In this document: one piece after another, positions 398 to 13,504 of the stretch | Layout of the letters: the number at the start of each line of letters is the position of its first letter | How positions within the stretch are numbered: position 1 is the first letter of the stretch | Assembly (NCBI GenBank): GCA_020621985.1 | Contig: JAHRYS010000001.1 | Location: 526,459 to 590,458, forward strand | DNA from: Candidatus Ferrigenium altingense | Lineage (GTDB): Bacteria > Pseudomonadota > Gammaproteobacteria > Burkholderiales > Gallionellaceae | Direction of reading: 5' to 3' | DNA length: 64,000 nucleotides | The notes under the pieces: generated by a model | What the model saw: the letters and a program-made list of their open reading frames with translations, nothing else | What the model was told of the DNA's origin: nothing | The model's database searches: none | Translations under genes and position numbers: made by a program

Positions 398-958
398 TCA
401 CGGGGTCTCGACCAGACCCGGCACGTATTCGAACTTTCCGGTCTGCGGATTCTTCACGTAGCTCAGCAGTTGCTTGCGATTTTTGCCGTAGCCCGGCGGG
501 AGAAGCGAGACATGCACCCAGCCGGAGTTCGGGCCTTCGTCCGCCGAGTAGCATTCCAGGATCAGCTGGTCGAACTTCAGGTTGTCCCGCACCCAGGCCG
601 CCAGCTTCATGTTGCTCGCGCTCATCACCTCGATGTCGCAGGCCTGGCCTTTGACATGCTGGCTGGTGCTGATCCAGTCTGCGGGCTTTCCCTTGATGGC
701 GCGCTCCAGCGCCTGGGTGCGGTAGACGCTGTTGGGCGTGTAGCGCCCGAATTGCTCGCGCACCGGCTGCATCACGTTGCGGCACAGGTAGACGGCGCAG
801 CGCAATTCTTCCGCCGATGCGAAATGGTTGGGGATGCCCTGTCGGCTGGCGAGGTCGGATTTGGTTAGCTCGTAGAACTGGAAGTTCTTGCTCACCCAGT
901 CATCGGGCGCGGCATCCGCCGGGAATTTTTTCCAGGGTATGTCGCTCGGGTCGGCCAT
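398..958 (-). CDS. M15-type (D-Ala-D-Ala carboxypeptidase/endolysin-like) metallopeptidase
   Basis: A 186-aa protein with the zinc-site pattern of the Peptidase_M15 fold: S-x-H101-x6-D108 in 'STSQHVKGQACDIE' and a third ligand His149 in 'GWVHVS'. The family cleaves peptidoglycan cross-bridges or stem peptides and is common in phage endolysins and in VanY-like cell-wall enzymes. No signal peptide or membrane segment is visible, so export would need a lysis, holin or secretion-system route. The start at 958 is supported by AGGAG five to six bases upstream. It is the last gene of a five-gene minus-strand run (patatin, lipase, Cys-rich protein, membrane protein, this gene), 29 bp after the previous stop. 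The family call is good; the biological target (own wall, prey or competitor) is inference. Confidence 0.8.
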   Translation of the reverse strand: MADPSDIPWKKFPADAAPDDWVSKNFQFYELTKSDLASRQGIPNHFASAEELRCAVYLCRNVMQPVREQFGRYTPNSVYRTQALERAIKGKPADWISTSQHVKGQACDIEVMSASNMKLAAWVRDNLKFDQLILECYSADEGPNSGWVHVSLLPPGYGKNRKQLLSYVKNPQTGKFEYVPGLVETP

Positions 959-987
959 GTGCGATCTCCTCGTTCAGATACCGGGCG

Positions 988-1524
988 TCACTGTTTCTTG
1001 CAGGGCTGCGCACATTGCGATGCCGGCGGCTTCAAGCTGTCGAGGCGTTTCTGCCTGGCTACTTCCAGATCCACTTTTTCGTAATAGAGGTCGGCGGCAT
1101 GCTGGGTGTCGGCGTTGCGCTGCTCGGTGCCGCGTATCGTGCCGCCCATGAATATCCCGTAGAGCGCGGACAGCATCAGGGCGATCAGGCAGTAAGGGAT
1201 CGCGGGCCTCCAGTCGGCGAGGCTCTCTTTGCCGAACATGTAGGCCAGCAGCGCACCCAGCAGGGTCAGCAGGGCGGGGAGCAGGCTGCCGACGACCGGT
1301 GTCATGCTGGCACCGGTGAGGATGCCGATCACCAGGCCGAGGCAGGCGAAGGCGGCGATCAGGCCGGTGGAGCCGGGCGCCAGGCTTGATTCCCTGGACA
1401 GTATCGCCGGCAGCCGCACCAGCAGCGTGATGACGGCCACCACGACCAGTGCCGGGAGGAATACATCGAGCAGCACCATCCGATGTGATGCGAGCACCGC
1501 GTACTGCACGGGGTTTTCATTCAT
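988..1524 (-). CDS. small multi-pass inner-membrane protein, function unknown
   Basis: A 178-aa protein starting MNENPVQYAV. The ATG at 1524 follows a good AAAGGA site, whereas the longer upstream frame has a coding-unlike Arg/Gln-rich N-terminus. Four hydrophobic segments are visible, at roughly residues 17-36, 52-75, 80-95 and 105-125. A charged C-terminal tail of about 45 residues ends in a Cys-containing stretch. The start codon overlaps the stop of the Cys-rich gene by four bases (ATGA), implying translational coupling. I do not recognise a family. Its place between an exported Cys-rich protein and a cell-wall peptidase suggests an envelope role; a holin-like or immunity-like role is only a guess. 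Confidence 0.7.
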   Translation of the reverse strand: MNENPVQYAVLASHRMVLLDVFLPALVVVAVITLLVRLPAILSRESSLAPGSTGLIAAFACLGLVIGILTGASMTPVVGSLLPALLTLLGALLAYMFGKESLADWRPAIPYCLIALMLSALYGIFMGGTIRGTEQRNADTQHAADLYYEKVDLEVARQKRLDSLKPPASQCAQPCKKQ

Positions 1525-1892
1525 GGCTTGTCCTTTCCCGCGCCGCCCGGCGTCTTGTCGGTCATCGGTGCCTTGTCCGGTATCGGCGGCTTGCCGGTGG
1601 GTTTGGGCGCGGCATCGTCGCCGTTCCACGGCGGCGCCGGAGGCGCTGCCGCAGCGTCGGCAGCTGGCTGCTCGGCAGGGAAGGGCATGGACTTGGGTAC
1701 GGAAAGCACCGCCGGTGGGTGAAGGCCGTCACCGTCGATGCCGCAGTGTTTGAAGCCGGCATCCTGTGCTCCGCAGCATTCGGCGCAGGCTCCGGTCGCC
1801 ACTTCGCATGCGCAGTTCACCCCGAAGGCTGCGCTGCTCCAGGCGAACGCCGCGGCGAGTATTAAGGCATATGCAACGTCAGTCAGCTTCAT
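1521..1892 (-). CDS. exported Cys-rich, Pro/Ala-rich small protein
   Basis: A 123-aa protein with a typical Sec signal peptide (MKLTDVAYALILAAAFAWSS then AAFG). A compact cluster of seven cysteines follows at about residues 27-50 (pattern CxC...C..CC...C). The remaining ~60 residues are a low-complexity Pro/Ala/Asp/Lys tail that looks unstructured. AAGGAG lies seven bases before the ATG. The gene is 24 bp downstream of the class-3 lipase stop and overlaps the next gene by 4 bp, so it belongs to the same transcript. The Cys cluster suggests disulphides or metal binding in the periplasm. No family is recognised. It could serve as a chaperone/inhibitor of the neighbouring hydrolases, but nothing in the sequence proves it. 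Confidence 0.7.
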   Translation of the reverse strand: MKLTDVAYALILAAAFAWSSAAFGVNCACEVATGACAECCGAQDAGFKHCGIDGDGLHPPAVLSVPKSMPFPAEQPAADAAAAPPAPPWNGDDAAPKPTGKPPIPDKAPMTDKTPGGAGKDKP

Positions 1893-1916
1893 TTTTGCTC
1901 TCCTTTCCCGCTGTGG

Positions 1917-2735
1917 TCAGCCGCCGCCGACGCGCGTCGGTTTGCCGTCGAGGTTGTTTTCCAGTAGCCCGACATAGAGTTTTCTTGAATGGTCCTTGAG
2001 CTTGTCGACGACCAGATGGTCCTTGATCTGGCCCCTGAGGCGGTCGAGTATCAGGTTCATCCAGTTGATGTCGTCGCGTTGTCTGCCCTTGGAATCGAAA
2101 TAGCAAAATGAGCCTACATGGCTGTATCCCATCGAGCGGAACGGTACTCGCGCAACCACGTCGTTGTTGTTGACGTAGTGGAAGGACTGGCGGCCGAAAT
2201 CGGCATCGAAATGACGCGCGAACTCGCGGTCACCGACGCGCGGCTGGCCGAATGTGTACAGGCCGTTTACCGGTTCGTCCTTCTCCAGGCGCAGCTTGGC
2301 GGTCGCCAGTACGGCGAGGCCCCCGCCGAGGCTATGGCCGGTCACCCATAGCGAGCGGTTGTTCCGGGTCGTTGCGATGTCCTGCCACAGGTCGCGCCAG
2401 ATGCTGTTCAGCGCCGCGTTGAAACCGTCATGTACCCGGCCTCCGGGGCCGCCGACCAGATTGACATCGAGGTCCGTCATCCAGTCCTTGATCTTGTCGG
2501 GCTGTGTGCCGCGGAACGCGACGATCAGGCACTTGTCGTTACCGACCAGGTAGGCCTGGGTGTCGAGGCGGTGGGCTTTGACGTTGTAGAATTTTTCCAC
2601 GGCCAGGCCGTGCTGTGCGAATTTTGGGGTGGCTTCCGGCGGGTCGTCATACGCAATGTCGCTGGCATAGCCGAGCAGCAGCGCATTGCCCGCGGAATAG
2701 TCATGGGTCGATGGGTCGAAATTCACGCTTGGCAT
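1917..2735 (-). CDS. class 3 lipase (alpha/beta-hydrolase)
   Basis: A 272-aa protein with Lipase_3 family hallmarks: 'VAFRGTQ' around residue 73 (oxyanion strand), the nucleophile elbow G-H-S135-L-G in 'VTGHSLGGGLAVLA', 'FGQPRVGD' around 162, an acid Asp192 in 'NNDVV', and a candidate catalytic His249 in 'KDHS'. The family hydrolyses triacylglycerol, monoacylglycerol or phospholipid ester bonds. No signal peptide is seen. The start is supported by GGAGGA upstream. It sits 35 bp after the patatin gene, so two different lipid-cleaving enzymes are co-transcribed. Substrate and location are not deducible from sequence. Confidence 0.88.
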   Translation of the reverse strand: MPSVNFDPSTHDYSAGNALLLGYASDIAYDDPPEATPKFAQHGLAVEKFYNVKAHRLDTQAYLVGNDKCLIVAFRGTQPDKIKDWMTDLDVNLVGGPGGRVHDGFNAALNSIWRDLWQDIATTRNNRSLWVTGHSLGGGLAVLATAKLRLEKDEPVNGLYTFGQPRVGDREFARHFDADFGRQSFHYVNNNDVVARVPFRSMGYSHVGSFCYFDSKGRQRDDINWMNLILDRLRGQIKDHLVVDKLKDHSRKLYVGLLENNLDGKPTRVGGG

Positions 2736-2770
2736 AAGAGCTTCCTCCGTTGATTGTTAAGCAGGATCGA

Positions 2771-4612
2771 CTATCGCAACTTTCCCGTTTTCAGGAAAAG
2801 CTTGTTGAAAATTGCAAGGTAGATGGACACCACCAGCCATGCCGATATGGACAGGGCAGCCATGCCGATACCGATAATTTTCGATCCGGCATCCGTCGCC
2901 GGATTTTTTTTGAGGCCGCGCAGCCAGGGAGTCGTTTTGAACCATGCGCGCACGGTGGAGGAAAGCGGCAGCAGCGCGAGGAGCGCTATTGCCGCATACC
3001 AGAAAAGGTCGCTTCCGGTAATGCTTGGTTGGGGCAGTTGTATTTTTATTCCCCAATGGGCATGGAGCCAGAAGGCCATGTTAAGGATCAACGGAGACAG
3101 CAGGAATAACAGCCAGGCCCACGATTCAACGGGGGCGAGATAAAACGTCTTGAAGAATTTTTGCTTGCCGACCGCCAGATGTGTGGTCAGGCGATACAGG
3201 TCATCCATGATTACGGGTCTGATATCCAGGAAACGCCATTGGCACAACGGCGTTGCACCCGGCGGGTTGCCCATCCCGGCCTGGCTCAGTCTGTCGAGCG
3301 CCAGCGAATAGCCCTGGTACATCAGGGTATAGGCTTCCAGGTCGCTGAACGAATCGAGGTCGGTGCGCACGCCGGAAAGCCGGTAGACGACCCCGTTCGA
3401 TCCGTTGGCCGGGCCGGGTAGTGCGGGCATCACGCTTGTGTTGGGAGCCGTTTGCCGCAGGTGGGTGAAGCAGGCGTTTTCGATGAAACAGATCTCCGTG
3501 TGCAATGCGTCTGCGGCAGGCAGTTTCTTGCAGCCATCCCGGCGTATCCTCAGGTCGAAATAACCATAGCCCCGGATGCGCTCCATCATCACATCGTTGG
3601 CGCGCTGGGCGACCTGCGCGAGGTGAGTGGGCAGCAGCTTTTCGTCGTCCAGTTGTCCGGACGCATCGCTGACGATGATCCGGGTGCACTGTGCCGCGAA
3701 CAAGGCATCCAGCCCCTGATTGTCAAATACCCCGCCATCCGACAGTTCGACGACGATCTCTTCTCCCTTGTTGTTGCGGTACAGGTCATGGATAGGCAGC
3801 GGCGGGAATATCGCGGGCACGGCGGCAGAGGCTGCCACCGCATCCGACAACAGGATGCTGTTCATCTTCTCCAGTTGTCGGCTCTCGACCCTGCGGCTTC
3901 TGTCGTCCTGAAAATATCCGTCGAACCTTAATTGCGGCAGGATGACATTGCTGTTCTGTTCGAGTTCGTACAGGCTTTTTTCCGGGGTGTATTTGATTCT
4001 CCGGCCGGGTTCACCCATCCACGATCCGGTGAAATGCCAGGGGTGGCCGGTGTTGAGGCAGGTGGCGTTGATGGTGAGCACCGGGATTTTGCATGACTCC
4101 GCGGCGTTGTATTTCTGTACCGAGAATCCGCCCTCGTCGGCAGGGTAATCGGCTGCGTTCTGCGGTGTGATGTAGATCGCATTCAGGTGTATGTCGCCGG
4201 TCAGCGCGACATGGCTATAAAAATAATCGTTGAGAAGCTCGGACAGTCTGTCGCTCCTGGAGTATTCCTCGTCCAGTAGCATCTTCGCGGTCTTGGCGGG
4301 GTTCAGAAATAATCGCATGCGCATATTTTTCTGCACCGCGTCCAGGAAATCACGCTCGATCTCCTGGACGATGCGAAAATAGTGCTCGGGCTTTGGTGTC
4401 GGGCAACCCGGCCGCCGCCCTTCCAGCAGCTGCTTGACCTTGAGATAGTAGTAGGCGCCGATGATGGAGCCGCCGGACACCGTGGAAAGCACCTCTACTT
4501 CATGAAGCAGTTCGCGCTCGGCCAATGCGGCTAATGTGCCGATATGAAACAGTGCAGCGCGAAATCCCCCGCCTGAAAGACACAACCCGATCTTGCCTTC
4601 TTGAGTGCTCAT
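2771..4612 (-). CDS. patatin-like phospholipase with C-terminal membrane anchor
   Basis: A 613-aa protein. The N-terminal ~330 residues carry the patatin signature: oxyanion loop G14-G-G-F-R, nucleophile Ser49 in 'TVSGGSIIGA', and the catalytic Asp292 in 'SDGGVFDNQG'. The Ser-Asp dyad is therefore complete and phospholipase A activity is expected. The C-terminal third contains three hydrophobic stretches ('WAWLLFLLSPLILNMAFWL', then one near 'LFWYAAIALLALLPL', then one near 'ALSISAWLVVSIYLAI'), so the enzyme is probably tethered to the membrane. This is longer than soluble bacterial patatins. It is the first gene of the five-gene operon, and repeat copy B lies about 140 bp upstream. Confidence 0.88.
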   Translation of the reverse strand: MSTQEGKIGLCLSGGGFRAALFHIGTLAALAERELLHEVEVLSTVSGGSIIGAYYYLKVKQLLEGRRPGCPTPKPEHYFRIVQEIERDFLDAVQKNMRMRLFLNPAKTAKMLLDEEYSRSDRLSELLNDYFYSHVALTGDIHLNAIYITPQNAADYPADEGGFSVQKYNAAESCKIPVLTINATCLNTGHPWHFTGSWMGEPGRRIKYTPEKSLYELEQNSNVILPQLRFDGYFQDDRSRRVESRQLEKMNSILLSDAVAASAAVPAIFPPLPIHDLYRNNKGEEIVVELSDGGVFDNQGLDALFAAQCTRIIVSDASGQLDDEKLLPTHLAQVAQRANDVMMERIRGYGYFDLRIRRDGCKKLPAADALHTEICFIENACFTHLRQTAPNTSVMPALPGPANGSNGVVYRLSGVRTDLDSFSDLEAYTLMYQGYSLALDRLSQAGMGNPPGATPLCQWRFLDIRPVIMDDLYRLTTHLAVGKQKFFKTFYLAPVESWAWLLFLLSPLILNMAFWLHAHWGIKIQLPQPSITGSDLFWYAAIALLALLPLSSTVRAWFKTTPWLRGLKKNPATDAGSKIIGIGMAALSISAWLVVSIYLAIFNKLFLKTGKLR

Positions 4613-5000: not shown

Positions 5001-5096
5001 ATTACTCCGCTAATTTGTGGTATGTCAAGCGAGGATGTTGGCAGTTGTTGGCGGGAAGATGCAGCGGTGCGGTCTGTATAATGCGCGCCTTGGTTG

Positions 5097-5122
5097 TGGT
5101 TCGACAGGCTCGCCACGAACGG
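5097..5122. repeat. short dispersed repeat (TTCGACAGGCTCGCCACGAA type)
   Basis: The stretch reads ttcgacaggctcgccacgaa with a few flanking bases. This is the half-palindrome of a short repeat family I know from many proteobacterial genomes. It lies immediately upstream of djlA and is read through by the longest open frame. That is one reason for moving the djlA start downstream to 5148. Confidence 0.55.
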
Positions 5123-5147
5123 TCTAATAATTTTTTCTGGAGTTGCC

Positions 5148-5921
5148 TTGTTCAAGCTCATCGGCGTCATTGCGGGTTATTTCTTTTTCGGATTTTGGGG
5201 CATATTGCTCGGTTTTTTTATCGGGGGATTTTTTGATCGCATGAGGGCGTATGGCTCCGGCGGGATGAACCCGTTGCAGAATGCGCTGCGTCAGGCGGTT
5301 TTCCTCGAGACGGTGTTCATCTCGATGGGCAAGCTGGCCAAGGCCGATGGGCAGGTCTCTGAAGGCGAGATTGCGCATGTCGAGCAGTTCATGCAGAAAC
5401 TGGGCATGACCGCGGAGCATCGATCACAGGCGATTGCGCTGTTCAAGCGCGGCGCCGATCCGGCGTTTGACATCGAGCCGACCTTGAAAAGATTCATGGC
5501 CGTTTGCGGGCACACGAAGCATCTGAAGCAGGTGTTGCTGGTTTATCTGATCGTGATGGCGCTGGCGGACGGGCATTTCCATCCGGCCGAAGAGGCGTTG
5601 CTGGCCGACATTGCCGCCCGTCTGGGCTATGATCAGGCCGCGTTCAGGCAATTGCTGGACATGGTGCTGAATCAATCCCACTTCGCCGGGGGGCAGGCCA
5701 ACACGGCCTCAGCATTGGACGACGCCTACAAGGCGCTGGGCGTGACTAAGGACAGCAGCGACGCGGAAATCAAGCGCGCCTACCGCAAGCTGATGAGCCA
5801 ATACCATCCGGACAAGTTGATGGGGCAGGGCGTGCCGGAGGACATGATCGCGATGGCCACCGAACAGGCAAAAGAAATCCAGCTTGCGCATGATTTGATC
5901 AAGAAGAGCCGGAATCTTTGA
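5148..5921 (+). CDS. djlA: DnaJ-like membrane co-chaperone DjlA
   Basis: A 257-aa protein in the DjlA layout. A glycine-rich N-terminal membrane segment (about residues 3-28, 'FGFWGILLGFFIGGFFD') is followed by a TerB-like helical domain (~45-165, 'KADGQVSEGEI' and 'ADGHFHPAEE'). A C-terminal J domain (~190-257) carries the HPD motif in 'SQYHPDKLMG'. DjlA stimulates DnaK from the inner membrane. I chose the TTG at 5148, preceded by ctggag. The alternative TTG at 5094 would encode 18 residues read out of a dispersed repeat, and the chosen start matches the usual N-terminus in front of the membrane segment. Confidence 0.88.
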   Translation: MFKLIGVIAGYFFFGFWGILLGFFIGGFFDRMRAYGSGGMNPLQNALRQAVFLETVFISMGKLAKADGQVSEGEIAHVEQFMQKLGMTAEHRSQAIALFKRGADPAFDIEPTLKRFMAVCGHTKHLKQVLLVYLIVMALADGHFHPAEEALLADIAARLGYDQAAFRQLLDMVLNQSHFAGGQANTASALDDAYKALGVTKDSSDAEIKRAYRKLMSQYHPDKLMGQGVPEDMIAMATEQAKEIQLAHDLIKKSRNL

Positions 5922-5937
5922 GCGGTTACGGGTTCTT

Positions 5938-6010
5938 GTAGGGGCGAGATTTATCGCGCCCTTTTCTTCTGTGCATGAGCAGATCAGGGCGCGATAAATC
6001 TCGCCCCTAC
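5938..6010. repeat. 24-bp perfect inverted repeat (palindromic dispersed element)
   Basis: Arms 5938-5961 and 5987-6010 are perfect reverse complements with a 25-nt spacer. The core is ggggcgagatttatcgcgcc. A sister element with a gattcatcgcg core lies at 15059-15118. It sits 17 bp after djlA, could form a strong RNA hairpin and may serve as a transcript end, although there is no U-tract. Confidence 0.85.
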
Positions 6011-6040
6011 GTGGTGGTTTGATCTTCGCAATAGTAAATC

Positions 6041-6094
6041 TAGCGTGCGCTGTGCGCACGATCCCGAGCAATGTCGTGCGCACAGCGCACGCTA
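6041..6094. repeat. 21-bp perfect inverted repeat
   Basis: Arms 6041-6061 and 6074-6094 are perfect reverse complements (core gcgtgcgctgtgcgcac) with a 12-nt loop. A half-copy (gtgcgcacagcgcaccct) appears near 54,042-54,060. It lies 38 bp upstream of yceH and is a second palindromic element next to the one ending at 6010. Confidence 0.85.
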
Positions 6095-6132
6095 CATTGG
6101 CTACAAAACCGTTAACTGCTTTTTCAGGATAA

Positions 6133-6807
6133 ATGATGTCCGCCACACTTCCCGTTCTCTCCCTCCTTGAAACCCGCGTCCTCGGCGTGCTTGCCGAGAA
6201 GCAGCGTACGGTGCCGGACTCTTACCCGCTGACGCTGAATTCGCTGGTCTCCGGCTGCAACCAGAAGAGCAGCCGCGACCCTGTTATCGAGGCTGCCGAA
6301 GCGGAGGTGCTGGTGGCGCTGGATAGTCTGCGGGGGATGTCGCTGATCGTGGAAACCAGCGGGGGGAGGGCGTCGCGTTATGCGCACAACATCGAGCGGG
6401 TGCTGCATATCCCCACGCAGTCCACCGCATTGCTGGCCCTGCTGATGCTGCGCGGCCCGCAGACGGCGGGGGAGCTGCGCCTCAATTGCGAGCGGCTGCA
6501 CAAGTTTGCGGATATTTCTTCGGTCGAGAGTTTCCTGGTCGAGCTGGCCGAGCGCGCGGCGGGCGGACTGGTAGTGGAGTTGCCGCGCCAGCCCGGTGCG
6601 CGCGAAAACCGCTGGATGCACCTGCTCTCCGGCGCGCCGGCCATCGAGGAGCGTGCGCCCGCCAGAGCGGCCACGCCATCGGGCGATGTGACGGTGGGCG
6701 AAATCGCCGCGCTCAAGGCCAACGTCGCCAGACTCGAAGCCGAGGTAAGCGAGCTGCGGGCGATGATGGGCAAGCTGTGCGCGGAGCTGGGCGTTTCTGC
6801 CGGGTAG
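6133..6807 (+). CDS. yceH: YceH family (DUF480) winged-helix protein
   Basis: A 224-aa protein matching the YceH/DUF480 family: an N-terminal 'LETRVLGVLAEKQRTVPDSY' type opening, then 'YPLTLNSLVSGCNQKSSRDP', then a second winged-helix-like half around 'LLMLRGPQTAGELR'. A coiled-coil-like C-terminus (about residues 190-220) follows. Function is poorly known in the family; tandem winged helices suggest nucleic-acid binding. Start at 6133 follows cagga. An adjacent ATG at 6136 is equally possible. It is a single-gene unit flanked by palindromes upstream and a hairpin terminator downstream. Confidence 0.88.
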   Translation: MMSATLPVLSLLETRVLGVLAEKQRTVPDSYPLTLNSLVSGCNQKSSRDPVIEAAEAEVLVALDSLRGMSLIVETSGGRASRYAHNIERVLHIPTQSTALLALLMLRGPQTAGELRLNCERLHKFADISSVESFLVELAERAAGGLVVELPRQPGARENRWMHLLSGAPAIEERAPARAATPSGDVTVGEIAALKANVARLEAEVSELRAMMGKLCAELGVSAG

Positions 6808-7079: not shown

Positions 7080-9230
7080 TCAGCTGATATCCAGCGCAAA
7101 GGCCCCCTGATCCCATCCATCCAACCCATCCAGCGTGCCTATTCCATTGAAGGTTTTGACATTGGAATGCAAGTTGACCGTGAAGCTGCACTTGCTATGT
7201 CCACCCAGCATGGTTCCAAAACTTGATTGCGCACTTTCATGCGGCGGATTGGGTGGCACGCCGACGTTGTCCGGATTGGGGTTGGGCGATGTGAGCACAC
7301 CTGTCGCGGTGCCAAGACCACGGTGCCACCAGAGCCTGTGATCCAGCAGGAACATCGGCTCGGGGTGGTACGCGCGATAACCCAGGCTGAAGTTGCTGCT
7401 GGCAGTGCCGAGAATGAATTGGCACTCGGCGGTGTTGGGCGCATGATCTTTACGCAGGTCGATGATTTCGGCATCGGCCTTGCGGTTGTCCCACCAGAGC
7501 ATATGGGTAAGCGCGGCAAAGGGTACCTCGGCAGTGGGGCCGGTTTCCTGATACCAGCGGCGGAAGGTAAAGTGGGCGGCCGCACTGGTTACGCCGACCG
7601 GTGCTGTTGTCCCTTGTGGGCGAAGCAGCTTGCCGGCGGCATCGAACACTTCCACCGTGAACAGGAAGCGTCCGTTGGCGAACTGCGTGGTATCCAGCAC
7701 CGCATGATACTGCCCGCTCTGCCAGTCGCGGTCGGCGTCATAGGGAATTTCGTACAGGTTATTTTGTGTGCCGGCGTTATGCGGGCCAAGCGCCTGCTTG
7801 TTCACATATATATCCGTGCCGACGATTTCATAATAACGCCATTGGCTCGCAGGCAGATAAGTGCGAGCGCCGGTGGGGTTGCCGATGCTATCCGAGGCGC
7901 TCACGCTCACGCGGTAATACTTGGCGCCGACCGTTTTCATCGGTTCGCTAAAGTGATAACGCAGCAGTAGCGAGCCGCCCCAGTTTCTATCCCGGTAAAC
8001 TCCCTTGGCCGCTATGGCGTTGGCAGCCGGGAAAGCCAAGCCATCGTTGTAAGCGGGCACGCCCACACTGTTCCAGTCAGTGGCATCCGGTGTTTTAAGG
8101 TTGTAACTGCCCGTCATGCCGATGTCTTGTAACAGCACGAAAGCACCTTCTTCGTTAGGGAACGGATCATGGCGGCAACTCTGCGCCTGCGGATGATGGC
8201 TGGTAAGGGTGGGGTGTTCGCTGTAGTGATACCATTGGTGCGCCGCCACGCCATCGTAAATCACTGTGCTGATACCGTTGATGTTTTGCTTGATGATGTA
8301 GGCGTAATCTTCGTGGCAATTTAGCAGCATCAAGTGCGGCCGCTCGCTCCAGCAGATATTGAATTCGCCATCGGGACGGATTGATCCCTGCGCAACTTTC
8401 GTCGCGCTTCCGCAGCTACAGCGGAGCCAAGCACGCGCGTTGATGTAAGCGGGGATTTGCTCGATGGGCAAGCTTTTAAGTGCGTGCAAATCTGCGCCGG
8501 CATTAATCGCCATTTCATCGATCGCACCGCTCTTGAAAAACGGAAACGTAAACGGTGAGGGGTCGGGTTCCGGGCGTGGCGGCCATTTGATGACCGGTAC
8601 ATCCGGATGGAATCTTTCAAGTATATCGACCAGATCGGGCAAGCGCGGATCGAATACCACCCAAGGTGTGCAGCAGCAGGTGCGGCGATAGACCTCCACC
8701 AAACCATCGCACACGATGTCGCAATGATGCGGCCAGAACTTTGAATAGCCCGGTTTGGCGATGGCGGCGTCCATCATCGCATTGGCGGCAAGTCTGGTGT
8801 GCGCCTTCGCACTCAATAGCCCGATATTGGTTAACGCCACCTGTTGCACAAGCTGCGTGAGCAGCAGCGGCCAAGGATAGCAGTGCTTCACACTGCCACT
8901 TACACAACGCTTGATCCACAACAGTTTATACCAGTCATTCTTTGCCAGTTCGATCACGCCACTGGTTTCCAGCGCCTGTTTGAACTGCGCTGCTCGATAG
9001 GTGATTACGCGAGTCTTATCGATACTTGAAAACTTCTCGGCCACCGGGCCAATAAGCACCTGCGCCGCGCCGGAAAGAGCCTTGGGGGATAACTTGAAAT
9101 TACCCCCAGCATCCACCCGGGCCGTTTCTATCAGCTTGTTGGCACGGTCCACAGCATAGACTGCAAATTCTGCCGCAGGCTCCCTCTCCGTGTGGCCAAT
9201 CAGTTCAATACGCATTTGTTGCTTGTCCAT
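7080..9230 (-). CDS. 716-aa protein of unknown function
   Basis: A long open frame with plausible protein composition that I cannot assign. Residues 1-60 look like a beta-sandwich 'carboxypeptidase-regulatory-like' start ('ETARVDAGGNFKL'). A helical part follows, with a cysteine cluster ('YRRTCCCTPW', 'HHCDIVCDG', 'WLRCSCGSA'). The C-terminal half is rich in Trp, Tyr, His and Asn, with motifs such as 'HQWYHYSEHP' and 'DTTQFANGRFLFTVEVFDAAG', the latter resembling an immunoglobulin-like domain. There is no signal peptide or membrane segment. The start follows ataggag, itself in the loop of a small hairpin (atcact...agtgat). It lies 290 bp downstream of the multi-hydrolase gene on the same strand and may be functionally paired with it. 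His/Cys richness hints at metal binding. Confidence 0.6.
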   Translation of the reverse strand: MDKQQMRIELIGHTEREPAAEFAVYAVDRANKLIETARVDAGGNFKLSPKALSGAAQVLIGPVAEKFSSIDKTRVITYRAAQFKQALETSGVIELAKNDWYKLLWIKRCVSGSVKHCYPWPLLLTQLVQQVALTNIGLLSAKAHTRLAANAMMDAAIAKPGYSKFWPHHCDIVCDGLVEVYRRTCCCTPWVVFDPRLPDLVDILERFHPDVPVIKWPPRPEPDPSPFTFPFFKSGAIDEMAINAGADLHALKSLPIEQIPAYINARAWLRCSCGSATKVAQGSIRPDGEFNICWSERPHLMLLNCHEDYAYIIKQNINGISTVIYDGVAAHQWYHYSEHPTLTSHHPQAQSCRHDPFPNEEGAFVLLQDIGMTGSYNLKTPDATDWNSVGVPAYNDGLAFPAANAIAAKGVYRDRNWGGSLLLRYHFSEPMKTVGAKYYRVSVSASDSIGNPTGARTYLPASQWRYYEIVGTDIYVNKQALGPHNAGTQNNLYEIPYDADRDWQSGQYHAVLDTTQFANGRFLFTVEVFDAAGKLLRPQGTTAPVGVTSAAAHFTFRRWYQETGPTAEVPFAALTHMLWWDNRKADAEIIDLRKDHAPNTAECQFILGTASSNFSLGYRAYHPEPMFLLDHRLWWHRGLGTATGVLTSPNPNPDNVGVPPNPPHESAQSSFGTMLGGHSKCSFTVNLHSNVKTFNGIGTLDGLDGWDQGAFALDIS

Positions 9231-9520: not shown

Positions 9521-12385
9521 CTAGAACCCGACCAGATCGTCGACTGGCAAGGCGAGCGGCGCACCGGTGATCCGCTCCAGTGTCTTGCCGATGATTTCGA
9601 CATTGTTGTCGAAGCCGCCGTGCGATGCGCTGGCGGTCTTCTCCGGCATGTCGGCGCCGTTGCCGCGCCGGGTGAGGATTTTTTCCTCGTTGTGGATGGT
9701 CAGGCGATCCTTCAGCTTGCTGATTTCCACGGCATTGCGCCAGTTGGTCAGGGTTTCGGCGGTGCTTGGCGAGCCATCCCAGCCGGAATACTGGGGATTG
9801 TAGACATTCTCCAGGCCAAGGATGGGCATGCGCAAATCGGCCTCGAGCGCGTTGGAAACGAAGTAGAGCAGGGACTTCTGGTAGACAAACGCGACGTTGT
9901 CATCCTGCTCGCGCTGATCCGCCAGGATGTCGAGGTGCAGCCTGCTCATGATCTCGGCTTGGGTGGCGTAGTGCCGGTTGGCAAAGGCGACCGTGCAGGC
10001 CGGGGCGTACAGATGGACGGATTTGACGCTGCCGGTCAGGCCTTTCTGCGCCAGGTTGCCGAGCAATCTGCCCAGGGCGATGGAGCCGGCGGAATGGCCC
10101 ATGAGGTGCAGTTCGAATTTGTCGCCCCAGCTGCCGGCCAGCGAGCGCAGCGCTTCGGTCAGCAGGTCGCCGCCCCGTCCGCTTTCCGCTGCGAGTTCGG
10201 CGTTTTCCTTCATTTCGCTCCACAGCGGGCGGGCGAGCGGGCGTCCGATGGTTTTTTCGACGACGGGGTCGCTGACCTTGTCGGTCAGCCAGCCGCCGAT
10301 GCCCCCGGCCATGCCTGCTGCGCCGGGGCTGACTTTATCCGCCAGAATGTTGCTCAGCGATTCGAGCAGGCCGCTCTTCCACACCAGGAACAGCGGGTAG
10401 CAGCCGTTGCCGAGGAAATAGCGCCCCATCGCCTGGGCGCGCTGGATTGCATCTTTTTCACTGTTGAGGCCGCCATGCGCGTAGATCACCAGGCGTTTTT
10501 TCTCGTGCGGATTCTGCCGGAACCAGGTGTCCGGCAGAACGCACGCCTGGTTCTGCAAGGTGCGAGTGACGCCATCCAGCTTGTCGAAGCGATTGATCTT
10601 GCCATTGTTGCCCAGCACGATGCTGTGCCGGTAGGCGGTGCCCTCGTCCCACCAGTTGTTGCGGGCGGCGGCAGCAGCGCCCGCCACTTCTCTGTCGCCC
10701 GCCGCGAGGCGGCCCGAGACGACCCCCGGCACGCCCAGCGCAGCGACCCAGACGTCCATCGCATGCGCCAGCCAATCCGCATAGCTGACCACGGCGAAAC
10801 CGCCGGCTCCCCAATGGTCGCCCCAGGAATTCTGGATTACGAAACCGGTGCGATTGAAGCCCACCAGCGCGAAGGCGTGGCCGCCGCTGCGCGACGGCTT
10901 GCCGTCGTAGGCGACCACCGGCAGGGTGGCATGGGATGCCGGCGGCTTGGCGCTGGTCTTGACCGTATCCCAGCCTTTATGGGTATAGGATGAAGCGTAG
11001 ATCGCGCCGACTTCCAGGATCGCCGCCTGCAAGTCGGTGATGGCCTGCGGGTCGATGCGGTAATACACCCCCAGCGTCCGTTCCACGGCGTCGCTGTCCC
11101 AGCCCGACTTGGGCAGGGTATCGCTTCCTTCTGCGTAAGGCCATTTGGACTCAAGGCAGACGCCGTTGTGATACCAGCCCTTGAGCGCGCCCCGGCAGCT
11201 CGAGCCGTCGTAGTTTTCGCCCTCGTATTCATCGAAACGCCGCGCGAAGTGATACAGCATGCGCGGGCTGACCGACTCGAGTTTCTTCGGCATTCCGGCG
11301 GATCGCCAGCGCAGGTAGTTGACGACGCAGGCTAGGCCGAAACCGGTGCATGCCCCTTCCTGCCCCTGATCCAGAATGAGCCCGGCCTTGGTATAGGCGC
11401 CCATGAAATGCTTGATGTCGTCGTCCGCCGGAAATATCTGCGGCAGCGAGCGCGGCGGCGGCAGGTACTGCCGGTCGCGCAGATCCGCCGGGTCGCGCGT
11501 TACGTTGAGGGATGCCCGGCGCGCCGCGATCGGGGCTGCCGCCCTGGCCAGCGCACCGACCAGCGGTTTCGCGGCCCAGACTTTCTGCGCGCTGCGGAAA
11601 GTGTCGGTAAACCGCTCCAGGCCGTGGCTGCCGCCATTGACTACCTTGCGCGCCGCCTTCAGGTCATCCCTGCCCAGCGCCTTGGCCAACTTGTCCCTGT
11701 TCTCATCGAGATAGGCGGCCAGCAGGCAGGCGGCGACTTCCGGCGCGCATGCGCAATCCGGGTTGTCTGCCAGTGCGATGTCGAGAACCTTGCCGTACTT
11801 TTCGTAATTGTCGCGCCCGGTCAATTGCACGAAGCCCCGCCCGCGATAGCGCGCGCCATCGCCCGGCTGCTTGTTGCCCAGCTTGTATTCGTAAGCGCTG
11901 AAGGCGGCCTGGCCGGGCAGCGTGTTGAAATGGGAGGGCATTTCGGCGATCGGCACGAAACCCTCGGTCTCGGCGCGTATCGTGCCCAGCGCGGTGCTGA
12001 TCATGTTCGCGTCGGTCAGGCCGAAGGCTGACAGTGCCGCGGTCACATAGGGCAGATTCTTGGCGATATTGGATGTCTTGGTGTAGGGAAATAACTTGTT
12101 CACCAGGGCGGCGTCCACGCTGACGGCCAATTCTGGGGGCGGCGCAATGCCCAGTGCGGACAGGGTGCGCGGCCCGGCGATGCCGTCCGCCACCAAGCCC
12201 ACGCCGGACTGCCAGGCGCGCAGGGCGGTCTCGGTGTCGGCGTCGAATTCATTGCCGGCGGCCAGGCCGGGGTAAGCCGCTGCGCCATCGCCCAAGGCCT
12301 TGCGCAAGGCTTTCTTCAGTTCGGCAACTTCCTTACCGGTGTTGCCCCGCATCAACAGTAGTATTTTGATTTTCGCGCTTTCCAT
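9521..12385 (-). CDS. four-module hydrolase: PG-binding, GH19-like lysozyme, papain-like protease, lipase-like
   Basis: A 954-aa protein with no signal peptide. Residues ~10-78 resemble a PG_binding_1 domain ('DADTETALRAWQ', 'ADGIAGPRTLSAL'). Residues ~85-270 look like a GH19-type endolysin: an acidic site around E139 in 'IRAETEGF' and 'YRGRGFVQLTGRDNY' at 180-194. Residues ~325-550 carry a papain-type C1 protease triad: Cys346 in 'DQGQEGACTGFG', His503 in 'GGHAFALVGF' and Asn519 in 'QNSWGDHWGAGGF'. Residues ~630-850 form an alpha/beta-hydrolase, with 'YAHGG' near 635-639 and the nucleophile Ser765 in 'LMGHSAGS'. GGGAGG precedes the start. Each family is known; joining cell-wall, protein and lipid or ester hydrolysis in one chain is unusual and suggests an effector or predation/lysis enzyme. 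No VgrG, Hcp, PAAR or phage gene is nearby, so delivery is unknown. Confidence 0.82.
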   Translation of the reverse strand: MESAKIKILLLMRGNTGKEVAELKKALRKALGDGAAAYPGLAAGNEFDADTETALRAWQSGVGLVADGIAGPRTLSALGIAPPPELAVSVDAALVNKLFPYTKTSNIAKNLPYVTAALSAFGLTDANMISTALGTIRAETEGFVPIAEMPSHFNTLPGQAAFSAYEYKLGNKQPGDGARYRGRGFVQLTGRDNYEKYGKVLDIALADNPDCACAPEVAACLLAAYLDENRDKLAKALGRDDLKAARKVVNGGSHGLERFTDTFRSAQKVWAAKPLVGALARAAAPIAARRASLNVTRDPADLRDRQYLPPPRSLPQIFPADDDIKHFMGAYTKAGLILDQGQEGACTGFGLACVVNYLRWRSAGMPKKLESVSPRMLYHFARRFDEYEGENYDGSSCRGALKGWYHNGVCLESKWPYAEGSDTLPKSGWDSDAVERTLGVYYRIDPQAITDLQAAILEVGAIYASSYTHKGWDTVKTSAKPPASHATLPVVAYDGKPSRSGGHAFALVGFNRTGFVIQNSWGDHWGAGGFAVVSYADWLAHAMDVWVAALGVPGVVSGRLAAGDREVAGAAAAARNNWWDEGTAYRHSIVLGNNGKINRFDKLDGVTRTLQNQACVLPDTWFRQNPHEKKRLVIYAHGGLNSEKDAIQRAQAMGRYFLGNGCYPLFLVWKSGLLESLSNILADKVSPGAAGMAGGIGGWLTDKVSDPVVEKTIGRPLARPLWSEMKENAELAAESGRGGDLLTEALRSLAGSWGDKFELHLMGHSAGSIALGRLLGNLAQKGLTGSVKSVHLYAPACTVAFANRHYATQAEIMSRLHLDILADQREQDDNVAFVYQKSLLYFVSNALEADLRMPILGLENVYNPQYSGWDGSPSTAETLTNWRNAVEISKLKDRLTIHNEEKILTRRGNGADMPEKTASASHGGFDNNVEIIGKTLERITGAPLALPVDDLVGF

Positions 12386-12504
12386 TTTATTCGCCTCCCT
12401 TGCGGTGGTTGAACAACGATAAGCATGATTTTTAATTACACGGTCAGGCGGCTTGCGGAAGTCTGGTTGCGGGGCATTCTAGGCAGTTGATTTGCCTTAT
12501 ACAA

Positions 12505-12534
12505 TAGGCCGAAATGCCTATATATTTCGGTCTA
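12505..12534. promoter_or_regulatory. hairpin/operator-like inverted repeat upstream of the multi-hydrolase gene
   Basis: Arms taggccgaaat (12505-12515) and atttcggtcta (12524-12534) pair with one mismatch or G-U around an 8-nt AT-rich loop. It lies 120 bp upstream of the 954-aa gene start, in a 333-bp gap that is AT-richer than its surroundings. It could be an operator or leader hairpin. No clear -35/-10 pair was identified. Nothing else was seen in 12386-12673. Confidence 0.35.
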
Positions 12535-12673
12535 TGGAGGCGTGTTTTTCCTTTAATATATCGACGCAAACAGGTGTTTTTCTGCACAAACTATAAAAAG
12601 AAAGGCCAGAAGTTCCGCGATATTAAGCGTTTCTGCAATGGCCGAAGCACGGTTGGAAAACCTTGCCGCCAAT

Positions 12674-12705
12674 AAAAAAGGGGATGCCGAAGCATCCCCT
12701 TTTTT
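12674..12705. terminator. Rho-independent terminator after the parvulin gene
   Basis: A perfect 14-bp stem (12674-12687 with 12692-12705) with a cgaa tetraloop, A/T tracts on both sides, 14 bp beyond the parvulin stop. It can work in both directions but serves the minus-strand operon. Confidence 0.9.
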
Positions 12706-12718
12706 GATTTGTTGCCGG

Positions 12719-13504
12719 CTACTCGATCTTGGCCTTGGCGCGCAATTCATCAATCGCTTTCTTGATCGATTGCTGTTGCAGGCGCTGTTGCAGTTGCGCC
12801 TTGATCTCTTCAAATGGCGGCACTTTCAGTTCGCGCGTGTCGTCCAGTTTGATGACATGCCAGCCGAATTGCGACTGTACTGGTTCTTTGGTGTACTCGC
12901 CCTTTTTCAGGTTGAGCAGCGCATTGGCAAACTCCGGAACGAAATTGCCCGGCACTGCCCAGCCCAATGAGCCGCCTTGCGCTGCAGAACCGGTATCCTT
13001 GGATTTTGCGGCGAGTTTCTCGAATTTGGCTTTCTTGCCCAGTTGCGCGATGATGTCCTTGGCCTCGGCTTCGGTTCCCACCAGGATGTGACGGGTGTTG
13101 TATTCCTTGTTGCCCAGCTTGGCTTTCAGCTTGTCGTATTCCTGCTTGAGCTGGTCTTCGCTGATCGGGTGATTCTTGGCGTAGTCCTGCACGAATGCGC
13201 CGACCAGCACGGATTGTTTGGCCAGTTCGACTTGCTGCACCACGTCGGGATTCTTGTCCAGTCCGGCCTTCACGGCTTCCTGTGCCATGACTTCGAGGTT
13301 GATCATGTCATCGCGGATCGCCTTGCGCAGTTCCGGGCTGTCTGCCTGGCCTTGTGCGGCGGCGGCCTTGACGCGCAGGTCGATGCGCGCCTGTGGAATG
13401 GAAACGCCGTTTACCAGAGCGGCGGATTTGTCTTCGGCGAAGGCGGGGTTAATCGCCAGTGCGCCCAGAATTGCCAGCGCCGCAAATTTGCCAGTTTTCA
13501 ACAT
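12719..13504 (-). CDS. periplasmic parvulin-type peptidyl-prolyl isomerase
   Basis: A 261-aa protein with a Sec signal peptide (residues 1-23, ending 'INPAFA'). An N-terminal SurA/PpiC-like helical chaperone region (~35-130) follows. A parvulin domain (~135-230) carries 'TRHILVGTEAEA', 'GGSLGWAVPGNFVPEFANAL' and 'SQFGWHVIKLDD'. It assists folding of exported proteins by prolyl isomerisation. The gene is the last of the yciB-yciI-bolA-parvulin run, 35 bp after bolA, a neighbourhood I know from other betaproteobacteria. A ggag-type site precedes the ATG. Confidence 0.9.
   Translation of the reverse strand: MLKTGKFAALAILGALAINPAFAEDKSAALVNGVSIPQARIDLRVKAAAAQGQADSPELRKAIRDDMINLEVMAQEAVKAGLDKNPDVVQQVELAKQSVLVGAFVQDYAKNHPISEDQLKQEYDKLKAKLGNKEYNTRHILVGTEAEAKDIIAQLGKKAKFEKLAAKSKDTGSAAQGGSLGWAVPGNFVPEFANALLNLKKGEYTKEPVQSQFGWHVIKLDDTRELKVPPFEEIKAQLQQRLQQQSIKKAIDELRAKAKIE

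Follow-up and report, generated by a model that had tools for sequence, protein, structure and literature searches.

We analyzed a window of 64,000 nucleotides from Candidatus Ferrigenium altingense, the whole stretch of DNA to which the positions below refer, and found that the gene at 9521..12385 encodes a 954-amino-acid (aa) polypeptide in which a peptidoglycan-binding domain, a GH19-type lysozyme domain, a papain-type peptidase, and an alpha/beta-hydrolase stand as four separate modules on one chain. In several independent lineages, amounting to a minority of the relatives, the peptidase and hydrolase part (hereafter, the core) is found next to, or fused with, either peptidoglycan hydrolases or genes of the trypsin/NucA, caspase, CHAT, or peroxidase type. 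With moderate confidence, we read the protein as a leaderless, cytosolic, protease-controlled executioner of self-lysis, acting in a programmed-cell-death or immunity-like setting.

Module Architecture of the Focal Protein

The focal gene and its modules are listed below.

9521..12385 (-): focal multi-hydrolase gene, 954 codons, ATG at 12385
12394..12400 (-): Shine-Dalgarno sequence AGGGAGG 5' of the ATG at 12385, from the upstream alignment
12152..12340 (-): PG_binding_1 domain, residues 16-78 (Pfam E 2.4e-9)
11567..12133 (-): GH19-type lysozyme/endolysin domain, residues 85-273, with E139 and E148 (sequence and fold)
10718..11509 (-): papain-type (C1A, xylellain-like) peptidase, residues ~293-556, with C346, H503, N519, and Q340
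9524..10654 (-): alpha/beta-hydrolase, residues ~578-954, with S765 in GHSAG and H922 (fold)

An initial annotation of this DNA had described a 954-aa multi-hydrolase in one frame, and the observation as a whole was confirmed, with sequence and fold matches supporting one polypeptide of four separate modules and no signal peptide found in the focal protein. The claim that its key residues are intact was also borne out, as all eight catalytic or oxyanion-type residues checked were kept in 119 of the 120 best long homologues. The GH19 fold was present, and E139 and E148 aligned, in a weak stretch of the alignment, with the Glu pair of endolysin 4ok7; this pair was likewise kept in 119 of 120 homologues. 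Peptidoglycan hydrolysis by the GH19-type module is predicted from these sequence features. The peptidase showed a papain fold with its Cys/His/Asn set and was preceded by a conserved N-terminal segment, DxxDxRD (D298, D301, R303, and D304). The last module showed an alpha/beta-hydrolase fold with a nucleophile-elbow Ser and a catalytic His. DUF900 (PF05990) gave no Pfam match in the focal protein, one relative (locus L126) matched it below the cut-off (E 0.0014), and a few relatives carry it; "lipase" activity is predicted from the fold and the residues.

In the first AlphaFold2 model the peptidase was poor, with a predicted local distance difference test score (pLDDT) of 65.8, and a second model with a wider alignment reached a mean pLDDT of 80.7. 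The predicted template modeling score of the second model was 0.48, so the mutual packing of the modules in it is tentative. Its fold list was filled by papains, and the fold matches of the other modules were taken from the first model. The alignments behind the structure models held 34 (A2) and 71 (A5) sequences, a subset of the relatives found.

Conservation and Distribution

The homologue search yielded 3204 proteins at E <= 1e-3 among 7994 candidates scored. The best 120 matches were 70-96% identical to the focal protein and nearly all about full length, and together with the retained residues they show that the four-module protein is a real, selected unit. A threshold for a hydrophobic N-terminus was passed by only one of 120 long and none of 120 core homologues. 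The protein is preserved across many proteobacteria; named hosts among 80 genome loci included Gallionella, Rhodoferax, Dyella, Luteibacter, Variovorax, Aquabacterium, Pseudomonas, Buttiauxella, and Desulfopila.

Among 300 genomes sampled from the order, the own genome included, a family match (E <= 1e-60) was present in 22, of which five had the long form (in four the match spanned the entire protein, in one it began at residue 168) and 17 had core matches. Ten matches (E <= 1e-50) were obtained in a phylum sample of 299 genomes: two long forms (one being the own genome), seven cores, and one N-terminal part alone. The family is thus patchy and accessory, and its absence from most of the sampled order genomes shows that it is not a housekeeping function. 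No SOS-type box (CTG-N10-CAG) was found in 19 upstream regions, and a library of anti-phage models gave no match to the focal protein. The architecture of a peptidoglycan-binding, GH19, papain, and hydrolase chain was not described in the openly licensed PMC literature found; in the excerpted text of PMC10380794, multidomain prokaryotic C1A proteins were left out of the analysis.

The Peptidase and Hydrolase Core and Its Partners

Beyond what the initial annotation had noticed, the core (residues 293-954) also occurs elsewhere on its own, as a separate protein of ~600-750 aa, sometimes adjoining or fused to peptidoglycan enzymes and trypsin-type proteases. All six residues checked were kept in 118 of the 120 listed core relatives, and the core of peptidase plus hydrolase is the unit to follow.

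Peptidoglycan enzymes accompanied the core in different ways. In three loci of one genus (L126-L128), a PG_binding gene lay 5-11 bp upstream; these were counted as one event because the copies are 95 and 91% identical. An Amidase_2 gene with a weak SH3 match lay 16 bp upstream in L130, an Amidase_2 plus PG_binding gene 68 bp upstream in L108, and a CHAP (below the cut-off) plus PG_binding gene was divergent from the core in L106. In L168, an N-acetylmuramidase was fused N-terminally to the core. The GH19 plus PG_binding fusion of the focal protein appears to answer this need in yet another way.

The second group of partners comprised genes of conflict-related families. The core was preceded by a trypsin plus NucA gene in L160 (45 bp away), in the Rhodomicrobium-type locus L163 (82 bp), and in L165 (138 bp); L160 additionally had genes for an S8 peptidase and, below the cut-off, a GDSL-lipase-like protein, and in L164 a trypsin was fused to the core. 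Animal haem peroxidase genes were found 58-59 bp upstream of the core in L171 and L110, and farther away in L130 and L108. A Rhizobium copy (L107) had trypsin-like and caspase genes nearby. Upstream of long homologues, a caspase gene was present in L019 (114 bp) and L124 (16 bp), both caspases matching "caspase" in the anti-phage model library, and a CHAT-TPR gene was present in L020 (75 bp). The peptidoglycan-enzyme and trypsin partners of the core are a pointer towards self-lysis.

In L019, a Desulfobulbaceae metagenome-assembled genome, three consecutive genes of 240-263 aa (10507-12772), the first without a Pfam match, follow the caspase and the focal homologue downstream.

Proposed Mechanism and Its Weighing

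Under the self-lysis reading, the protein would be held inactive, perhaps through DxxDxRD, the conserved segment that precedes the papain domain, and would be activated either by its own peptidase or by a caspase- or trypsin-like protease acting upstream; self-processing by its own peptidase, raised in the initial annotation, is possible. The hydrolase would then attack membrane lipid, the PG-binding and GH19 part would next gain access to the wall and cut it as an endolysin does, and the peptidase would destroy proteins or process the chain. The modules, the intact residues, the distribution, and the partners are established computationally; the zymogen state, protease activation, the membrane step, and lysis of the producer are steps that we infer.

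The gene counts around the core lean towards these partners. In a near set of 75 adjacent genes from 40 core loci, Endonuclease_NS, Trypsin_2, and PG_binding_1 each occurred three times, and Amidase_2 and An_peroxidase twice; in a far set of 101 genes four or five places off, each of these five families occurred at most once. In a seeded positional test, six of eight matches of the peptidoglycan set were adjacent, against a background of 237 adjacent genes out of 1669. The positional test excluded L001, L082-L084, L113-L119, and L122 (duplicates, short, or partial), and a separate locus count left out L083, L084, L112-L119, L122-L124, L127, L128, and L155 (short, full-length, or near-copies).

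Several observations weigh against the self-lysis reading. The near-set counts are small, as is shown by the short-chain dehydrogenases (adjacent to the core in L133 at least), which also scored three there, and the p-values of the positional test are optimistic because adjacent genes supplied its seeds. These seeds revealed no such partner in most of the 127 loci, and the long homologues adjacent to a caspase or CHAT gene numbered three (L019, L124, and L020). A reverse search from the trypsin plus NucA side found the core within ~1.5 kb at only two of 20 places, both previously found, the other 18 matching part of the query alone. In five core relatives (L160, L163, L165, L164, and L110), the nucleophile serine of the hydrolase is replaced and the papain triad is intact; a lipase step is therefore not shared, and the peptidase is the constant part, with the lipase step being clade-specific. 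Judging from their residues, these serine-less modules may be pseudoenzymes or have altered chemistry. The lytic activity of the protein is a prediction from sequence and model, and the crossing of the inner membrane by a cytosolic enzyme is again something we infer; a 19-residue stretch above hydropathy 1.6 was present in 33 of 120 long homologues and not in the focal protein. At home, the focal gene is flanked by a 716-aa gene of no assigned family and a PpiC-type isomerase gene, the sole caspase-domain match of the genome lies ~195 kb away, and no NucA match was found in this genome. Finally, Caulobacter vibrioides, the home of the self-lysis system LypABC, gave no Peptidase_C1 match, a negative limited by the fact that many divergent core members also lack a precomputed C1 domain.

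A bolder form of the idea is a one-gene lysis cassette, in which a single polypeptide would serve membrane, wall, and protein destruction as a zymogen triggered by immunity proteases of the caspase or trypsin type, and in which the core would be the missing lytic executioner class downstream of trypsin plus NucA hubs such as LypABC, at least in some bacteria. We put this forward as a rather doubtful extension. If true, one chain would do the jobs that phages split among holin, endolysin, and spanin. How bacterial death and immunity systems free of gasdermins burst the cell is an open problem, for which this conserved chain, with its relatives next to caspase and trypsin plus NucA genes, offers a class of executioner that can be tested directly. 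The many entries named merely "C1 family peptidase" or "peptidoglycan-binding protein" would also gain a working hypothesis from it.

Gene Neighborhood

The tabulation of homologue neighbors that the initial annotation had proposed covered 83 loci, made up of the window, 80 relatives, and two loci of the core, L104 and L105. It showed no position-conserved neighbor and no position-conserved candidate for an immunity gene. A conserved operon was accordingly rejected, as the largest neighbor cluster spanned 23 of the 83 loci at scattered positions. The most position-constant of the larger sets comprised eight loci, the named ones from Variovorax, in which a ~140-aa gene that looks PIN-like on visual inspection lies at +1 or +2. 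Which neighbor families are generic was decided by eye, and gene calling relied on a simple codon-usage script in place of a standard gene finder.

In the window, three further genes encode degradative enzymes, the lipase and the patatin being possible associated hydrolases.

398..958 (-): leaderless M15-type peptidase (PF08291 on its L012 homologue)
1917..2735 (-): leaderless class-3 lipase (PF01764 E 2.1e-30)
2771..4612 (-): patatin-like phospholipase with a C-terminal hydrophobic segment (PF01734 E 7.9e-18)

All three are free of a signal peptide and lie on the focal strand within 9 kb of the focal gene. Of this stretch (398-4612), only the M15 and patatin-type genes recur beside relatives: in L012, the focal homologue is followed after 48 bp by an M15 homologue 85% identical to that of the window, and patatin-type genes occur at +1 downstream, overlapping, in L066 (Pfam below the cut-off) and 4 kb off in L003 (by similarity to the L066 gene). 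For the class-3 lipase, the 127-locus positional comparison showed no homologue outside the window. Two opposite-strand genes (5094-6807, +), which we take to be TerB/DnaJ-like and then DUF480-like, separate the focal gene from the patatin and lipase stretch; the first of them is kept near the focal homologue in seven other loci. Directly downstream of the focal gene lies the gene for the leaderless 716-aa protein (7080-9230, -), whose Pfam search gave a weak Big_6 match alone and for which the remaining loci compared contained no homologue. The caspase-domain match of the own genome is a 582-aa protein (L193, 4154-5902) amid genes that appear integrase-like by eye.

Alternative Explanations

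The protein could instead be an effector without a leader that serves antibacterial attack or predation and reaches other cells by an unlinked system, such as a type VI secretion system (T6SS), a type IV secretion system, a contractile particle, or release by lysis, to attack the wall, protein, and lipid of a target. We regard this as possible and on the whole unlikely. The initial annotation had suggested an effector or a weapon of predation or lysis; a lysis-type role remains plausible, whereas a secreted predation weapon was not upheld. The T6SS sheath was found in three of the 22 family genomes versus 73 of the 300 overall, and in none of the five long-form genomes, the count covering the same order genomes as the family matches as far as listed. 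With no T6SS enrichment in the family genomes, T6SS delivery was not supported. The own genome, 81% complete, gave no match to a T6SS sheath (TssC), a phage sheath, or VirB4, and both the missing signal peptide and the lack of a position-conserved candidate immunity gene in the 83 loci also speak against a delivered effector. Delivery to prey is less supported than self-lysis.

A wall-turnover or debris-scavenging enzyme, autolysin-like and recycling wall, protein, and lipid after the death of the producer or its kin without a death programme, would fit the fact that every predicted activity is degradative and that no neighbor is position-conserved. We nevertheless consider it improbable, given that the protein has no signal peptide, that caspase, CHAT, and trypsin plus NucA adjacency in some relatives would be unexpected, and that the family is missing from most of the sampled order genomes. 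Descent from a phage, as a domesticated lysis protein or the remnant of a prophage, is very improbable despite the endolysin-like N-terminal third, since 583 of the 50,697 phage records searched matched but none of them covered 80% of the protein, the 15 phage matches listed were confined to residues 14-269, 21 IMG/VR loci sought by peptidase motifs matched within residues 292-577 alone, and no phage structural family appeared among 10 window proteins given to Pfam; the missing full-length phage matches disfavor a phage origin of the whole chain.

Comparison with Known Systems

A PG_binding domain ahead of a GH19 lysozyme domain is a known endolysin layout, and modular GH19 endolysins are phage-encoded, alongside holins. 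Those of SPN1S (4ok7) and PWe2 (9ms7) share the GH19 lysozyme domain and the two aligned glutamates with the focal protein and, unlike it, have no peptidase or hydrolase modules. To our knowledge, papain and alpha/beta-hydrolase modules are also lacking in TseP (8xcl). This dual-function effector resembles the focal protein in having a GH19-type domain within a multi-activity protein and differs from it in being T6SS-delivered, according to the title of 8xcl. The best fold match of the focal peptidase, including the segment before the papain domain, was xylellain (3ois), a bacterial C1A peptidase that, unlike the focal chain, is a single-domain protein and whose substrate is given as unknown in the excerpt of PMC12090721.

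Closer to the proposed setting are the trypsin-NucA "System 3" conflict systems, in which, according to the relevant section of Kaur et al. (eLife 2020, PMC7159879), lysozyme- and papain-like effector domains are joined through EAD1; in a related system, one passage states, caspases are always accompanied by an alpha/beta-hydrolase gene. The trypsin plus NucA genes beside the core in L160, L163, and L165 and the S8 peptidase gene in L160 resemble System 3 as described there, whereas the papain plus alpha/beta-hydrolase core and the four-module chain are absent from that section. The focal gene also differs from System 3 and LypABC in having no trypsin or NucA neighbor, this adjacency belonging to the distant core relatives L160, L163, and L165. 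According to Banks et al. (Nat Microbiol 2026, PMC13236601), LypABC of Caulobacter triggers self-lysis through a lytic effector stated to be unknown, and LypC is a trypsin-like peptidase plus endonuclease with domains to residue 662. The 652-659 aa proteins upstream of the core in L160, L163, and L165 resemble LypC, so described, by domain content and length alone. By this analogy, the core and its fusions would fit the role of executioners below LypABC-type hubs.
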